Positions 550-29,315 of a stretch of DNA of 39,856 nt are shown in pieces. The notes beneath the pieces are model-generated. The model saw only the letters and a list, made by a program, of their open reading frames with translations. It was not told the DNA's origin and did no database searches. This DNA is from Symploca sp. SIO2E9 (GTDB lineage Bacteria; Cyanobacteriota; Cyanobacteriia; Cyanobacteriales; Coleofasciculaceae). How positions within the stretch are numbered: the first letter of the stretch is position 1; every line of letters begins with the position of its first letter. Position numbers and translations under genes: made by a program. The DNA lies in contig JAAHGS010000049.1 of NCBI GenBank assembly GCA_010692645.1, positions 1-39,856 of the forward strand, in the 5' to 3' direction.

Positions 550-1932
550 ATGGTCTGGAAAGAGGGACAGGAATTACAAGCTGGTAAATACATAGTTGGA
601 GATGTACTCGGACAAGGTGGTTTCGGGATTACTTACCAGGCGCTGCACACTACCCTCAACCAGCAGGTGGTGATTAAAACTCCCAATGAGCATCTCAAAC
701 GTGACCCAGACTACGATAAGTATGTAAGACGCTTTATCAAAGAGGCGCAGTTAATTGCTCAGCTCTCACAAGACCCTCATCCTCATATTGTGCGAGTCAG
801 TGATTTGTTTCAAGAAGCTGAAACTCACTGTCTGGTGATGGAATTTATTCCAGGGAAAAGTTTGTTTGAGTTAGTGGGGCAACAAGGGGCTTTGCCAGAA
901 GCAGAGGCTCTAAACTATATACGCCAGATTGGCGATGCTCTGGCATTTGTGCATCAACAGGGATTAGTTCATCGAGATGCCCACCCTGGTAATATTATGC
1001 TGCGCGGTAAGGGTAAGGCAGTCCTAATTGATTTTGGTATTTGTGGAGAGCTAGTTCCTACTACAGTTAGCTCAATGCATCCAGGGCATGGTGGATTTGC
1101 TCCCATTGAACAGATGAAAGGCGATCGTCAGCCGACTGTGGATATATATTGTTTGGCTGCTACTCTTTACTATACGGTGACTGGTGAACGTCCTACAAGT
1201 TCGTTTGATCGTAAAGCATTTGATATAGAATTACCTCCACCAAAACAGTTAAATTCAAATATAAGTAAAAGGCTAAATCAAAGTATTGTTAGAGGAATGG
1301 CACTAGAGGCAAAAGAACGCCCTCAGTCGATGCAACAGTGGTTGAAGTTGCTAGAAGCACCAAAAGTAGTAATTCCACCTCCAGTGTTTAAGTTGCCGAA
1401 AGCACCGAAAGTAGTAGTTCCAGCTCCAGTTAAGAAAACTTATAGACAAGAGATAGTTTGGCCATCACCTAAGAAATCCCCTGCCTTACCTCCTAGAAAA
1501 CCAGATACTCGACAAACTAGAACCATTCCCTGGATTTGGCTGGTGCTATTGTTAATATCTTACTTATCTATAGGCAGCTTCTTAACTGAGGCTAAGGTTC
1601 TGGTTGTGGTTTGGGCTTGGGCTGTGGCTGGGGCTTGGGTTATGGCTGGGGCTGTGGCTGAGATTGTGACTATAATTTTTGCTATGATTTTTGCTATGTT
1701 TTGGTTTTTAGTTGTGGCTGTGGCTGTGGTAGGGACTTGGGCTGGGGCTGTGGCTGTGGTTGGAGCTGTGACTGTGGCTGTAGCTGGGGCTGTAATTGCC
1801 ACAAAGTTAGGAAAATCCTTCAGCAAGTCTCAAACCTTTGTGATTCTCAGTGGGACTTCCATTTTAGGGCTGACTTTGGGATGGTTGGTGCAGCATTCAA
1901 TTGAAATACTCAGTAACTCAATTGGTAGTTGA
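550..1932 (+). CDS. Membrane-anchored Ser/Thr protein kinase (Hanks type)
   Basis: A eukaryote-like protein kinase that phosphorylates Ser/Thr on unknown targets. The catalytic domain fills about residues 14-268 and looks intact: glycine loop GQGGFG (21-26), VIK lysine 43, a likely helix-C glutamate 65, HRD (141-143) with N148, DFG (161-163), and APIEQ (184-188) in place of APE. A Pro/Lys-rich linker follows (about 270-325), then a first membrane segment beginning IPWIWLVLLL. Next comes a very low-complexity stretch of Val, Ala, Gly and Trp, and a last hydrophobic helix near the C terminus. The kinase should face the cytoplasm. The ATG at 550 is chosen over a TTG two codons upstream. The linker repeats a motif (APKVVIPPPVFKLPK, then APKVVVPAPVKK). 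The repeated DNA under the membrane part is described as a separate feature. No partner gene is adjacent. Confidence 0.9.
   Translation: MVWKEGQELQAGKYIVGDVLGQGGFGITYQALHTTLNQQVVIKTPNEHLKRDPDYDKYVRRFIKEAQLIAQLSQDPHPHIVRVSDLFQEAETHCLVMEFIPGKSLFELVGQQGALPEAEALNYIRQIGDALAFVHQQGLVHRDAHPGNIMLRGKGKAVLIDFGICGELVPTTVSSMHPGHGGFAPIEQMKGDRQPTVDIYCLAATLYYTVTGERPTSSFDRKAFDIELPPPKQLNSNISKRLNQSIVRGMALEAKERPQSMQQWLKLLEAPKVVIPPPVFKLPKAPKVVVPAPVKKTYRQEIVWPSPKKSPALPPRKPDTRQTRTIPWIWLVLLLISYLSIGSFLTEAKVLVVVWAWAVAGAWVMAGAVAEIVTIIFAMIFAMFWFLVVAVAVVGTWAGAVAVVGAVTVAVAGAVIATKLGKSFSKSQTFVILSGTSILGLTLGWLVQHSIEILSNSIGS
1590..1800 (+). repeat. GCTGTGGCTGGGG-like simple repeat encoding transmembrane residues
   Basis: Inside the kinase gene the DNA is built from variants of GCTGTGGCTG, GGGGCTGTG and GGGACTTGG. 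The frame used encodes strings of Ala, Val, Gly and Trp, so the repeat itself forms hydrophobic, membrane-like segments. The same bases give an open frame on the opposite strand (1560-1826) and a second forward frame (1701-1904). Both are compositional artefacts. Such a tract should be prone to slippage, changing the number of membrane residues. Confidence 0.75.
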
Positions 1933-2100: not shown

Positions 2101-2218
2101 TATATAACACTTCTCAAATTGGTGAGATACAAACTTCTTGGTTTTAGGGAGCAGGGAGTAGGGAGCAGGAAGCAGGAAACAGAACTAGGTGTATCTCAGT
2201 TATTCGAGAAACGCTATA
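2101..2218 (+). repeat. MITE-like element, family A copy 1
   Basis: A non-coding element of about 118 bp with imperfect terminal inverted repeats. The left end reads TATATAACACTTCTCAAATT and the right end, inverted, TATAGCGTTTCTCGAATAAC. Both continue into TGAGATACA. The core is a run of GGGAGCA/GGGAGTA heptamers. Near-identical copies lie at 3377-3485 (opposite orientation) and 29199-29315. No transposase is inside, so any movement would need one acting in trans. Confidence 0.75.
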
Positions 2219-3067: not shown

Positions 3068-3290
3068 GATGATTAATAAGTAATAAGTAATAAGTAATAA
3101 GTAATAACTAGAGATTTTATCGAAATTAATATGGATCAAATACCCCACCGTCTATACGGTGCCTAAAATTGGTTGGGGTCAAATCCCCATCCAATTTGTC
3201 TCCGCGTCGACCTGTCGACCTGTCCCCGCGTCTTTAATTCTTGCTTATAATAAATAAAGTTATTTATATAAAATATTTAGTTAGTCGATA
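3068..3290. repeat. AATAAGT tandem heptamers and hairpins after Uma2
   Basis: Five copies of a TAATAAG heptamer run from 3074 to 3108 directly after the Uma2 stop. Beyond it are the hairpin CACCGT/ACGGTG (near 3148-3163), a TTGGGGTC/ATCCCCATCC stem near 3170-3195, and GTCGACCTGTCGACCTGTC, which resembles the GACAGG-type repeats at 4085 and 20230. No gene is seen. Confidence 0.6.
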
Positions 3291-3380
3291 AATTATCTTT
3301 GGTGGGTTACGGCGCGGATAGGAAAACTATATTAGATTTCATAAATTATGACCCACGCCTAACCCACCCTACAATATATA
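3291..3380 (+). repeat. 90-bp palindromic dispersed repeat, copy 1
   Basis: About 90 bp beginning AATTATCTTTGGTGGGTTAC and ending TAACCCACCCTACAATATA. The ends pair (GGTGGGTTA with TAACCCACC), so it could fold as one long hairpin. A second copy lies at 6139-6228 with only scattered base differences. The element runs straight into MITE-like copy 2. A short open frame through it is not a gene. Confidence 0.75.
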
Positions 3381-3485
3381 GCGTTTCTCGAATAACTGAG
3401 ATACACCTAGTTCTATTCTCTGCTCCCTACTCCCTGCTGCCTAAAACCAAGAAATTTGTATCTCACCAATTTGAGAAGTGCTATA
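3377..3485 (-). repeat. MITE-like element, family A copy 2 (inverted)
   Basis: A reverse-orientation copy of the element at 2101-2218, with ends TATAGCGTTTCTCG and GAGAAGTGCTATA and a shorter heptamer core (CTCCCTACTCCCTGCTGCC). It fuses end to end with the 90-bp repeat before it. That suggests one element landed at the edge of the other. Confidence 0.75.
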
Positions 3486-6033: not shown

Positions 6034-6138
6034 ACTTTTTAGGTTGGGTGAAACCTGACTTTAAGCAGAATAGGTGTTGGGTTTCGTTGCCTCTTCGGCT
6101 CTCCAGAGCTCTTGGTGGAAACTGTACATCGTACTACA

Positions 6139-6228
6139 AATTATCTTTGGTGGGTTACGGCGCTGATAGGAAAACAATACTAGAATTCACAAATTATGAC
6201 CCCCGCCTAACCCACCCTACAATATATA
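6139..6228 (+). repeat. 90-bp palindromic dispersed repeat, copy 2
   Basis: It matches the copy at 3291-3380 in the same orientation, including the GGTGGGTTACGGCGC left arm and the CCTAACCCACCC right arm. It lies between the convergent Nudix and secreted-protein genes, where the hairpin could act as a bidirectional terminator. Pyrimidine CTCCCC repeats follow at 6301-6350. A 118-residue open frame across this region is not a gene. Confidence 0.75.
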
Positions 6229-6365
6229 AAATTTTATTATCACCACATGTACGGGAGAGCCGACCACACTTTCGCGCAACCCAACCTACAAGTACTAACA
6301 TCTCCCCTCTCCCCTTCCCCCCATCTCCCCATCTCCCCCTCTCCCCTTCCCTCTTCAAACCTCCC

Positions 6366-6983: not shown

Positions 6984-7097
6984 TATAGCAACGGACATAT
7001 CAGTTAGGACATTCTATTTTGATTCAAAGGGAGCAGGGAGCAGGGAGTAGGGAGTAGGAAACAAGGAAGTGTCCTAATCATAGTGGCGACGGCTATA
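6984..7097. repeat. MITE-like element with TATAGC ends and TTAGGACA subterminal repeats
   Basis: About 114 bp. The left end is TATAGCAACGGACATATCAG followed by TTAGGACATTC. The inverted right end is TATAGCCGTCGCCACTATGA followed by TTAGGACACTTC. The core is a GGGAGCA/GGGAGTA heptamer run (about 7029-7056). The outermost bases and the core match family A, but the subterminal sequence differs, so it looks like a sister family. It lies in the 627-bp gap upstream of the secreted-protein gene. The rest of that gap (7098-7493) shows nothing recognisable. Confidence 0.6.
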
Positions 7098-8987: not shown

Positions 8988-9088
8988 TATAGCAATCCTA
9001 TTTGATTTACGAACACCTGGCTGCTACACCCCTGTATTAGCGAGATTTTGGCTCTCTCGGTGTTTAGATCTCATTTAGGATTGCTATA
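8988..9088. repeat. MITE-like element with TATAGCAATCCTA ends
   Basis: About 101 bp with good terminal inverted repeats: TATAGCAATCCTATTTGAT on the left and, inverted, TATAGCAATCCTAAATGAGA on the right. It lacks the heptamer core of the other TATAGC elements. It lies between the convergent DUF1995 and DUF2780 genes and could act as a terminator for both. Confidence 0.65.
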
Positions 9089-19958: not shown

Positions 19959-20333
19959 GATTAACTTCTCTTGCCCTTAGGTGTTACTTTTATTAATTTA
20001 CATTAAAAAAAGCAAAGTTTTGTGTAGAAAATTAAAAAATTTAAAAATTACCAATTCACCCTCAGCAGTACCATCAAGCTTTGCCGGAGTATTCAGAGAC
20101 TTGTTGTGCATCTAAATTTCACTTTTGAGGAAAATCTCTGAGCTGATCATGGATAATCAGGCTTAGAACTGTTAAGAGGGGTGAACGAAATTTTGCGTGG
20201 GATTTGAATTCTCCGCGTCTCCGTGTCTCCGCGTCGACCTGTCTGCTTAATTATTTCCCCACGCCTTTTTTCGCTCACCCTGTTAAAAGTTCCTTATCCT
20301 GAACCAGAGACTTATTCAGCAAACCCTATTAAA
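19959..20333. other. Gap upstream of menB containing a dispersed repeat
   Basis: An AT-rich first part (19990-20050) gives way to the reverse copy (20172-20243) of the repeat found at 4082-4175. menB transcription probably starts downstream of or within that repeat. No other gene is seen. Confidence 0.45.
20172..20243 (-). repeat. Reverse copy of the 4082-4175 dispersed repeat
   Basis: TTAAGAGGGGTGAACGAAAT followed by TTTTGCGTGG, then CTCCGCGTCTCCGTGTCTCC. It is the inverse of the module ending the small gene at 3891. It lies about 90 bp upstream of menB. Confidence 0.6.
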
Positions 20334-29198: not shown

Positions 29199-29315
29199 TA
29201 TAGCACTTCGCTTTCTTAGTGAGATACAAACTTCTTGGTTTTAGGGAGCAGGGAGCAGGGAGTAGGGAGCAGGGAACAGAACTAGGTGTATCTCAGTTAT
29301 TCGAGAAACGCTATA
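29199..29315 (+). repeat. MITE-like element, family A copy 3
   Basis: It matches the copy at 2101-2218 in the same orientation, including TGAGATACAAACTTCTTGGT, the GGGAGCAGGGAGTA core and GAACTAGGTGTATCTCAGTT. The left TIR differs slightly (TATAGCACTTCGCTTTC). It lies between convergent genes. Confidence 0.75.

Follow-up and report, generated by a model that had tools for sequence, protein, structure and literature searches.

Within the window, that is, the whole stretch of 39,856 nucleotides from Symploca sp. SIO2E9 that was analysed, three small repeats carry inverted ends around a tandem heptamer core, which raises the question of what these elements are, what moved them and what the core does. 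The answer that we favour, with a probability of about 85% from comparison of sequences, is that they are IS630-type MITEs (non-autonomous elements of the IS630/Tc1-mariner type), whose tandem core would be a slippage spacer and probably also a junction at which arms are exchanged.

The copies at 2103-2218, 3377-3485 (inverted) and 29199-29315 are one homologous repeat family, here family A, as a preliminary description of this DNA had observed; pairwise comparison gave 88–96% likeness in ungapped stretches. The first copy had been placed at 2101, but it begins at 2103 with TATAAC, and in most other copies the alignment starts at query base 3. The features of the window are the following.

2103 to 2218, + strand: family A element, 116 bp including one flanking TA per side; left arm TATAAC-N14-TGAGATACA, right arm (on the - strand) TATAGC-N14-TGAGATACA; site empty in the congeneric genome G001
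2146 to 2178, + strand: its heptamer core, GGGAGCA/GGGAGTA
3377 to 3485, - strand: family A element, 109 bp, inverted relative to the copy at 2103; empty target paralogue at 6145-6241
3414 to 3442, - strand: its heptamer core, located by counting from the start of the element and rich in C on the + strand
6145 to 6241, + strand: element-free paralogue of the site where the 3377 element was inserted
6984 to 7097, + strand: family C element, arms TATAGC-N14-TTAGGACA, heptamer core like that of family A
7028 to 7058, + strand: heptamer core GGGAGCA/GGGAGTA of the family C element
8988 to 9088, + strand: family E element, TATAGC ends, arms alike at 23/30 bases, no heptamer core
29199 to 29315, + strand: family A element, 117 bp; left arm of a variant type, whose 15-base spacer ends in CTTTCTTAG
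29243 to 29275, + strand: its heptamer core

Further copies, for which a search had been proposed, were found in the draft host assembly (7.75 Mb, 383 contigs). At least 41 family A matches were obtained at E<=0.001, a minimum, since scoring was limited to 40 of 273 candidates, and a 17-base arm motif with up to two mismatches had 49 matches, compared with 2 for the reversed pattern. From host loci 47 arm matches were gathered, with both ends present in 38. These full copies measured 102–138 bp in 36 cases; the remaining two, of 227 and 244 bp, had a second element nested inside the array (L032 and L050). The nine arm matches without both ends include L009, where the contig ends inside the array, and L055, which has no element. 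By reading, the other arm was lost at the end of the heptamer array in L014, L020, L034 and L044, and elsewhere in L026 and L053. Family A is therefore small, multi-copy and devoid of a transposase gene, as an IS630-type MITE should be.

The ends of family A are bipartite, TATAGC-N14-TGAGATACA on both sides, with two different spacers (ACTTCTCAAATTGG and GTTTCTCGAATAAC). Among sample copies in which the outer TATAGC was exact, the two arms agreed at 22–23 of 30 bases, and the terminal inverted repeats of roughly 30 bp in the preliminary description were thus right, if imperfect. The left-arm variant of the 29199 type occurred in 8 elements, all from the host, of a collection of 83 (53 from the host) in which a period-7 array and the box in both arms were required. 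When host arms were compared with those of the g7 genomes (720 ungapped pairs, at loci mostly picked by matches to host elements, and given little weight), likeness in the left arm was lower for the spacer (0.58) than for the subterminal stretch (0.76), and in the right arm the subterminal stretch (0.46) and spacer (0.49) were about equal.

Target-site duplications, also proposed as a check, were read from empty sites, which for some copies show insertion at TA with duplication of the TA. At the 2103 site G001 has TTGTTATAAATAGA, whereas in the host the element stands there with a TA on either side. A 91-base repeat (3290-3380) bears the 3377 element at its edge, and the empty paralogue of that insertion site matched at 90.7% over 97 bases with no gap. 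That repeat also occurs at 6138-6228, the two being 93% alike, with GGTGGGT and ACCCACC near the ends. When reconstructed empty sites were compared with the host DNA searched, 13 of 38 passed the filter and seven were kept on re-reading (the window sites at 2103 and 3377, L003, L011, L013, L029 and L035); L049 was discounted as a self-match, and L018, L023, L028, L033 and L054 as largely simple repeats. The weaker retained sites in host DNA were L003 (79%) and 2103 (84%), and a convincing empty site was found for only about one fifth of the copies in the DNA searched. Against the relatives' DNA searched, 3 of 38 passed, the convincing one being the 2103 site in G001; the sites at 3377 and 6984 could not be read in that genome because the region differs too much. 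It was also seen, by eye, that the elements at L011, L013, L029 and L035 occupy the identical TA within copies of a different repeat and are found there in either orientation, implying at least two insertions.

A rival explanation is that these are structured intergenic repeats (REP/BIME-like or RNA elements) spread by recombination instead of transposition. In its favour, 31 of 32 placeable copies lay between mechanical ORFs, with six more at ORF edges. One strand of 3377-3485 moreover folds into a strong hairpin (z = -3.4; 0 of 200 shuffles equally stable). The TA duplication, the empty sites and the arms common to IS630 elements argue against this explanation, which we regard as very improbable. 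The position between convergent genes that had been noted for several elements applies to three of the five window elements (mechanical ORFs) but was not a trend of the family: 8 of 31 classifiable copies lay in such gaps, which hold 15% of intergenic bases, in a count that leaves out 7 of the 38 copies at the edge of or inside an ORF.

The assignment to the IS630 type comes from the arms. The IS630-family element L148, found in G042 (a genome of the host's order), is 1026 bp long with two overlapping frames, and its ends are TATAGC GGTTCTCAGATTGG TGAGATACACTA and TATAGC GGTTCTCAAATTGG TGAGATACAGTA. Compared with the element at 3377-3485, it agrees at best at 27/29 bases with the better arm and at 24/29 with the other. 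Pfam searches of L148 detected HTH_Tnp_IS630 and DDE_3 above the cut-offs, and its second frame alone scored 116.9 bits with the NCBIfam IS630 model (cut-off 100). A second IS630 element with two overlapping frames, L112 of G007, has two different spacers (GTTTCTAGGACTCA and AATTCTACGACTTG), both of which recur at 14/14 in one MITE of G007 itself (L290:2247); in G015, G018 and G019, too, some MITEs carry the L112 spacers, at 12–14 of 14 bases. Ends are thus common to MITE and IS630 transposon by way of elements of relatives, whose compared regions were chosen around matches. With TTAGGACG as their inner box, the IS630 elements L059, L125 and L128 were discarded as family A partners; they were kept for family C. 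In G007, another IS630 copy (L119, contig C285) is flanked by two closely similar heptamer MITEs.

The transposase with matching ends that the preliminary description had called for therefore exists in relatives (L148, L112), but in the host the family, protein and end-pattern searches found no intact partner, only transposase fragments. A search with PF13358 (DDE_3) gave three host hits, none with TGAGRTACA ends, and the host protein matches to the second L148 frame covered 36 and 52 residues. The one IS630 found in the host, L059, has other ends and one internal stop codon. The end-pattern search gave 32 host matches and none for the control; at the four places whose surrounding sequence was read, the arms were of MITE type and nothing matched the L148 proteins, and nearly all remaining places, judged from the matched letters only, continue MITE-like and not L148-like.

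An IS630 transposase acting in trans could recognise the bipartite arm (TATAGC, 14-base spacer and TGAGRTACA box), cut the element out and integrate it at a TA, which would be duplicated. We infer that such an enzyme moved the elements, which probably move with a borrowed transposase, and that the partner has been lost from the host or lies outside the assembly. For ISY100 of Synechocystis, an IS630-family element, transposition has been described with 30 bp from either end, and the TA is duplicated (PMC2170065). The window elements resemble ISY100 and the IS630/Tc1-mariner group in TA target, TA duplication and short imperfect inverted ends; they differ in having no gene, whereas ISY100, as described there, is 947 bp with one ORF, and L148 and L112 have two overlapping frames (PMC2170065).

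The cores of family A consist of tandem 7-base units (GGGAGCA/GGGAGTA and variants) and lie between the inverted-repeat ends, an arrangement that makes the elements minisatellite MITEs. All 36 uninterrupted cores were 7n+1 bases long, with n from 3 to 8 and n = 5 in 23 of them. These lengths suggest that the core varies by whole units, most simply via replication slippage. The earlier idea of a size-variable filler suits the length, which changes in steps of 7, but falls short in that the array is also common to different arm families and joins half-and-half elements.

Another view of the core is that it was selected as a G-quadruplex or purine tract, aiding transposition or acting on neighbouring genes. 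The G3N4 spacing is in keeping with this, as is a four-run G3 motif in 21 of 38 cores (two nested cores counted), and the Nostoc GGGGAYT heptamers have been studied for quadruplex formation (PMC4692102). The motif is missing from the other 17 cores, and a quadruplex as a strict requirement is accordingly not supported. In relatives, moreover, the units drift to GGTAAGA or GGCAAGA, which have no G3 runs and keep the period of 7, and TATAGC-ended families D and E (see below) have no such tract. Selection of this kind is accordingly judged unlikely.

Elements with TATAGC ends were sought in a host sample of 1.095 Mb, which comprised eight large contigs (partly not to their ends) and the window and was not random. 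There were 32 inverted pairs, some of them overlapping, whose arms agreed at 17/30 or more, and five first-order Markov controls averaged 1.2. Because equal spacing and an exact TATAGC are required, the scan does not pick up the copies at 2103 and 29199. Period-7 cores, a few of them weak, occur in families A (TGAGATACA), B (TGAGGTACA) and C (TTAGGACA, the window element at 6984). They are absent from family D, whose ends are like those of the IS630 element L111, and from family E (window 8988). Few pairs fell outside families A to E, and two of these were mixed (C101:71792 and C1:36642). Family C has ends similar to those of L059, L125 and L128 (TATAGC-N14-TTAGGACG). Since the cores of families A and C are alike and their ends are like those of different IS630 elements, one heptamer occurs in MITEs resembling at least two IS630 groups. 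The superfamily proposed in the preliminary description is supported in this form, as several TATAGC-ended arm families resembling at least two IS630 groups. The elements at 6984 and 8988 do share the TATAGC ends as it had said; that they differ inside is correct for 8988, which has no core, but overlooks that 6984 has the same GGGAGCA/GGGAGTA core between other arms.

The array could instead be primary, a cyanobacterial short tandem repeat to which the arms are incidental surroundings. Period-7 arrays are indeed common in the sample, with 104 tracts compared with 60 for period 8 and 0–11 for every remaining period between 4 and 12. No arm of the TATAGC types searched adjoined any of 34 AAGTAAT arrays, and 34 of the remaining 41 period-7 tracts were likewise without one (both sides 1, one side 6). 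In addition, according to Rehm et al., G-rich heptamers in Xanthomonas and Nostoc generally showed no association with insertion sequences or transposable elements (PMC4692102). Arrays of strict GGGARYA units behaved differently in this one 1.1 Mb sample of one genome, adjoining a known arm in 22 of 29 tracts, compared with 52 of 5000 random places (arms on both sides 10, one side 42). Sixteen of these tracts had arms on both sides, six on one side, two of the six belonging to one element, and seven had none, so that the GGGARYA class is for the most part not free-standing. The inverted TATAGC ends without an array in families D and E are a further point against the primacy of the array, which we consider quite improbable.

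For the IS630-type MITEs that we favour, the sharing of one array by several arm families suggests a further role for the core, as a patch of homology in which elements might recombine or switch template to give products with the arms of two families. Several loci have this form. In L044 a family A arm (score 41) is combined with a Y arm, Y being one end of a family X-Y that has heptamers like those of the other families and no TATAGC end beside the array. The seven X arms in the sample were followed by Y or diverged Y in six cases (by eye) and by a family C arm in one (C1:24042). L077 and L078, near-identical places in two contigs, with L078 at a contig start, join a family C arm (score 39) to an arm of TGAGGTAC type, for which the best match was weak (26). 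The draft assembly has many contigs, and some of these junctions could therefore be assembly errors. In G018, on a contig of 8.26 Mb, L281:8140 joins halves of two arm types: the left half scores 43/45 to one, the right 38 to another (next best 25), and the units shift from GGGAGCA to GGGAACA. These half-and-half elements are consistent with recombination, or a switch of template, within the array, and the core probably acts as an arm-exchange junction in addition to being a slippage spacer.

A broader reading, which we hold only tentatively and think rather doubtful as a whole, is that the array is a modular junction across which small elements swap arms between families, including two IS630 groups and X-Y. 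By such exchange a core lineage could gain new transposase-recognition ends and outlive each transposase, and the GGGARYA repeats of this lineage would largely be cores or relics of such elements. The statement of Rehm et al. counts against this reading (PMC4692102). Arm exchange of this kind would offer a concrete way for non-autonomous elements to change the transposase that they use.

Cyanobacterial heptamer tandem repeats go by the name STRR; the present arrays share their tandem 7-base units, and the results tie a class of such heptamers to mobile elements in this lineage. The Nostoc GGGGA(C/T)T repeats are, like the window cores, G-rich tandem heptamers and mostly intergenic, but according to their authors they have generally no mobile-element association and few paired inverted repeats (PMC4692102); most GGGARYA arrays here, by contrast, sit between or beside MITE arms. 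BrickBuilt of Porphyromonas gingivalis is, like the window elements, a MITE containing a tandem repeat, with a 23-base unit and 19 occurrences in one strain (PMC4596501); the present elements differ in having heptamers common to several arm families, as well as half-and-half elements. Nezha is likewise a cyanobacterial miniature inverted-repeat element, a likeness taken from its title as cited in PMC10969869. No description of heptamer-cored IS630 MITEs in cyanobacteria was found among the titles and abstract starts listed first for each literature query, in a collection with few subscription papers, which is no proof of absence.

Outside the host, the exact arm pattern had no match in the genome contig collection, from which the host or very near records may be left out, and the exact subterminal pattern had three loci, all in MAG UBA11370. 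With two mismatches allowed, a 23-base subterminal pattern had 45 host matches and none in 291 other genomes, a draw from the phylum with one other member of the host's family. From these subterminal results the exact interior is narrowly distributed. Looser matches (E<=0.001) occurred in 28 of 57 genomes including the host, many of them covering the heptamers only. In a plasmid of Gloeothece verrucosa PCC 7822, 82% of the query was matched at 73.8% identity, and the matching stretch has arms as well as GGGAACA units.

Some other repeats were also seen. A second kind of small element has GGGTGA[AG]CGAAA ends, an octamer core (TCTCCGCG or TGGGCGTC) and, by eye, apparent target duplications of 8–9 bases; this end was present on one or both sides of 13 of the 60 period-8 tracts in the sample. 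Examples are C90:108723-108757 and C101:151001-151035, as well as the elements nested in L032 and L050, and a TTTTTTCGCTCACCC end of this kind lies upstream of window position 20302. Arrays of GGCAGRA heptamers that adjoin an inverted repeat like GTTGTGCATTTTTAATGCACAAC (C124:76536, C1:5823, C223:129143 and others) form another repeat family with a heptamer array. Finally, window positions 1561-1793, inside the ORF at 544-1932, contain degenerate repeats with spacings that are multiples of 6 bases.
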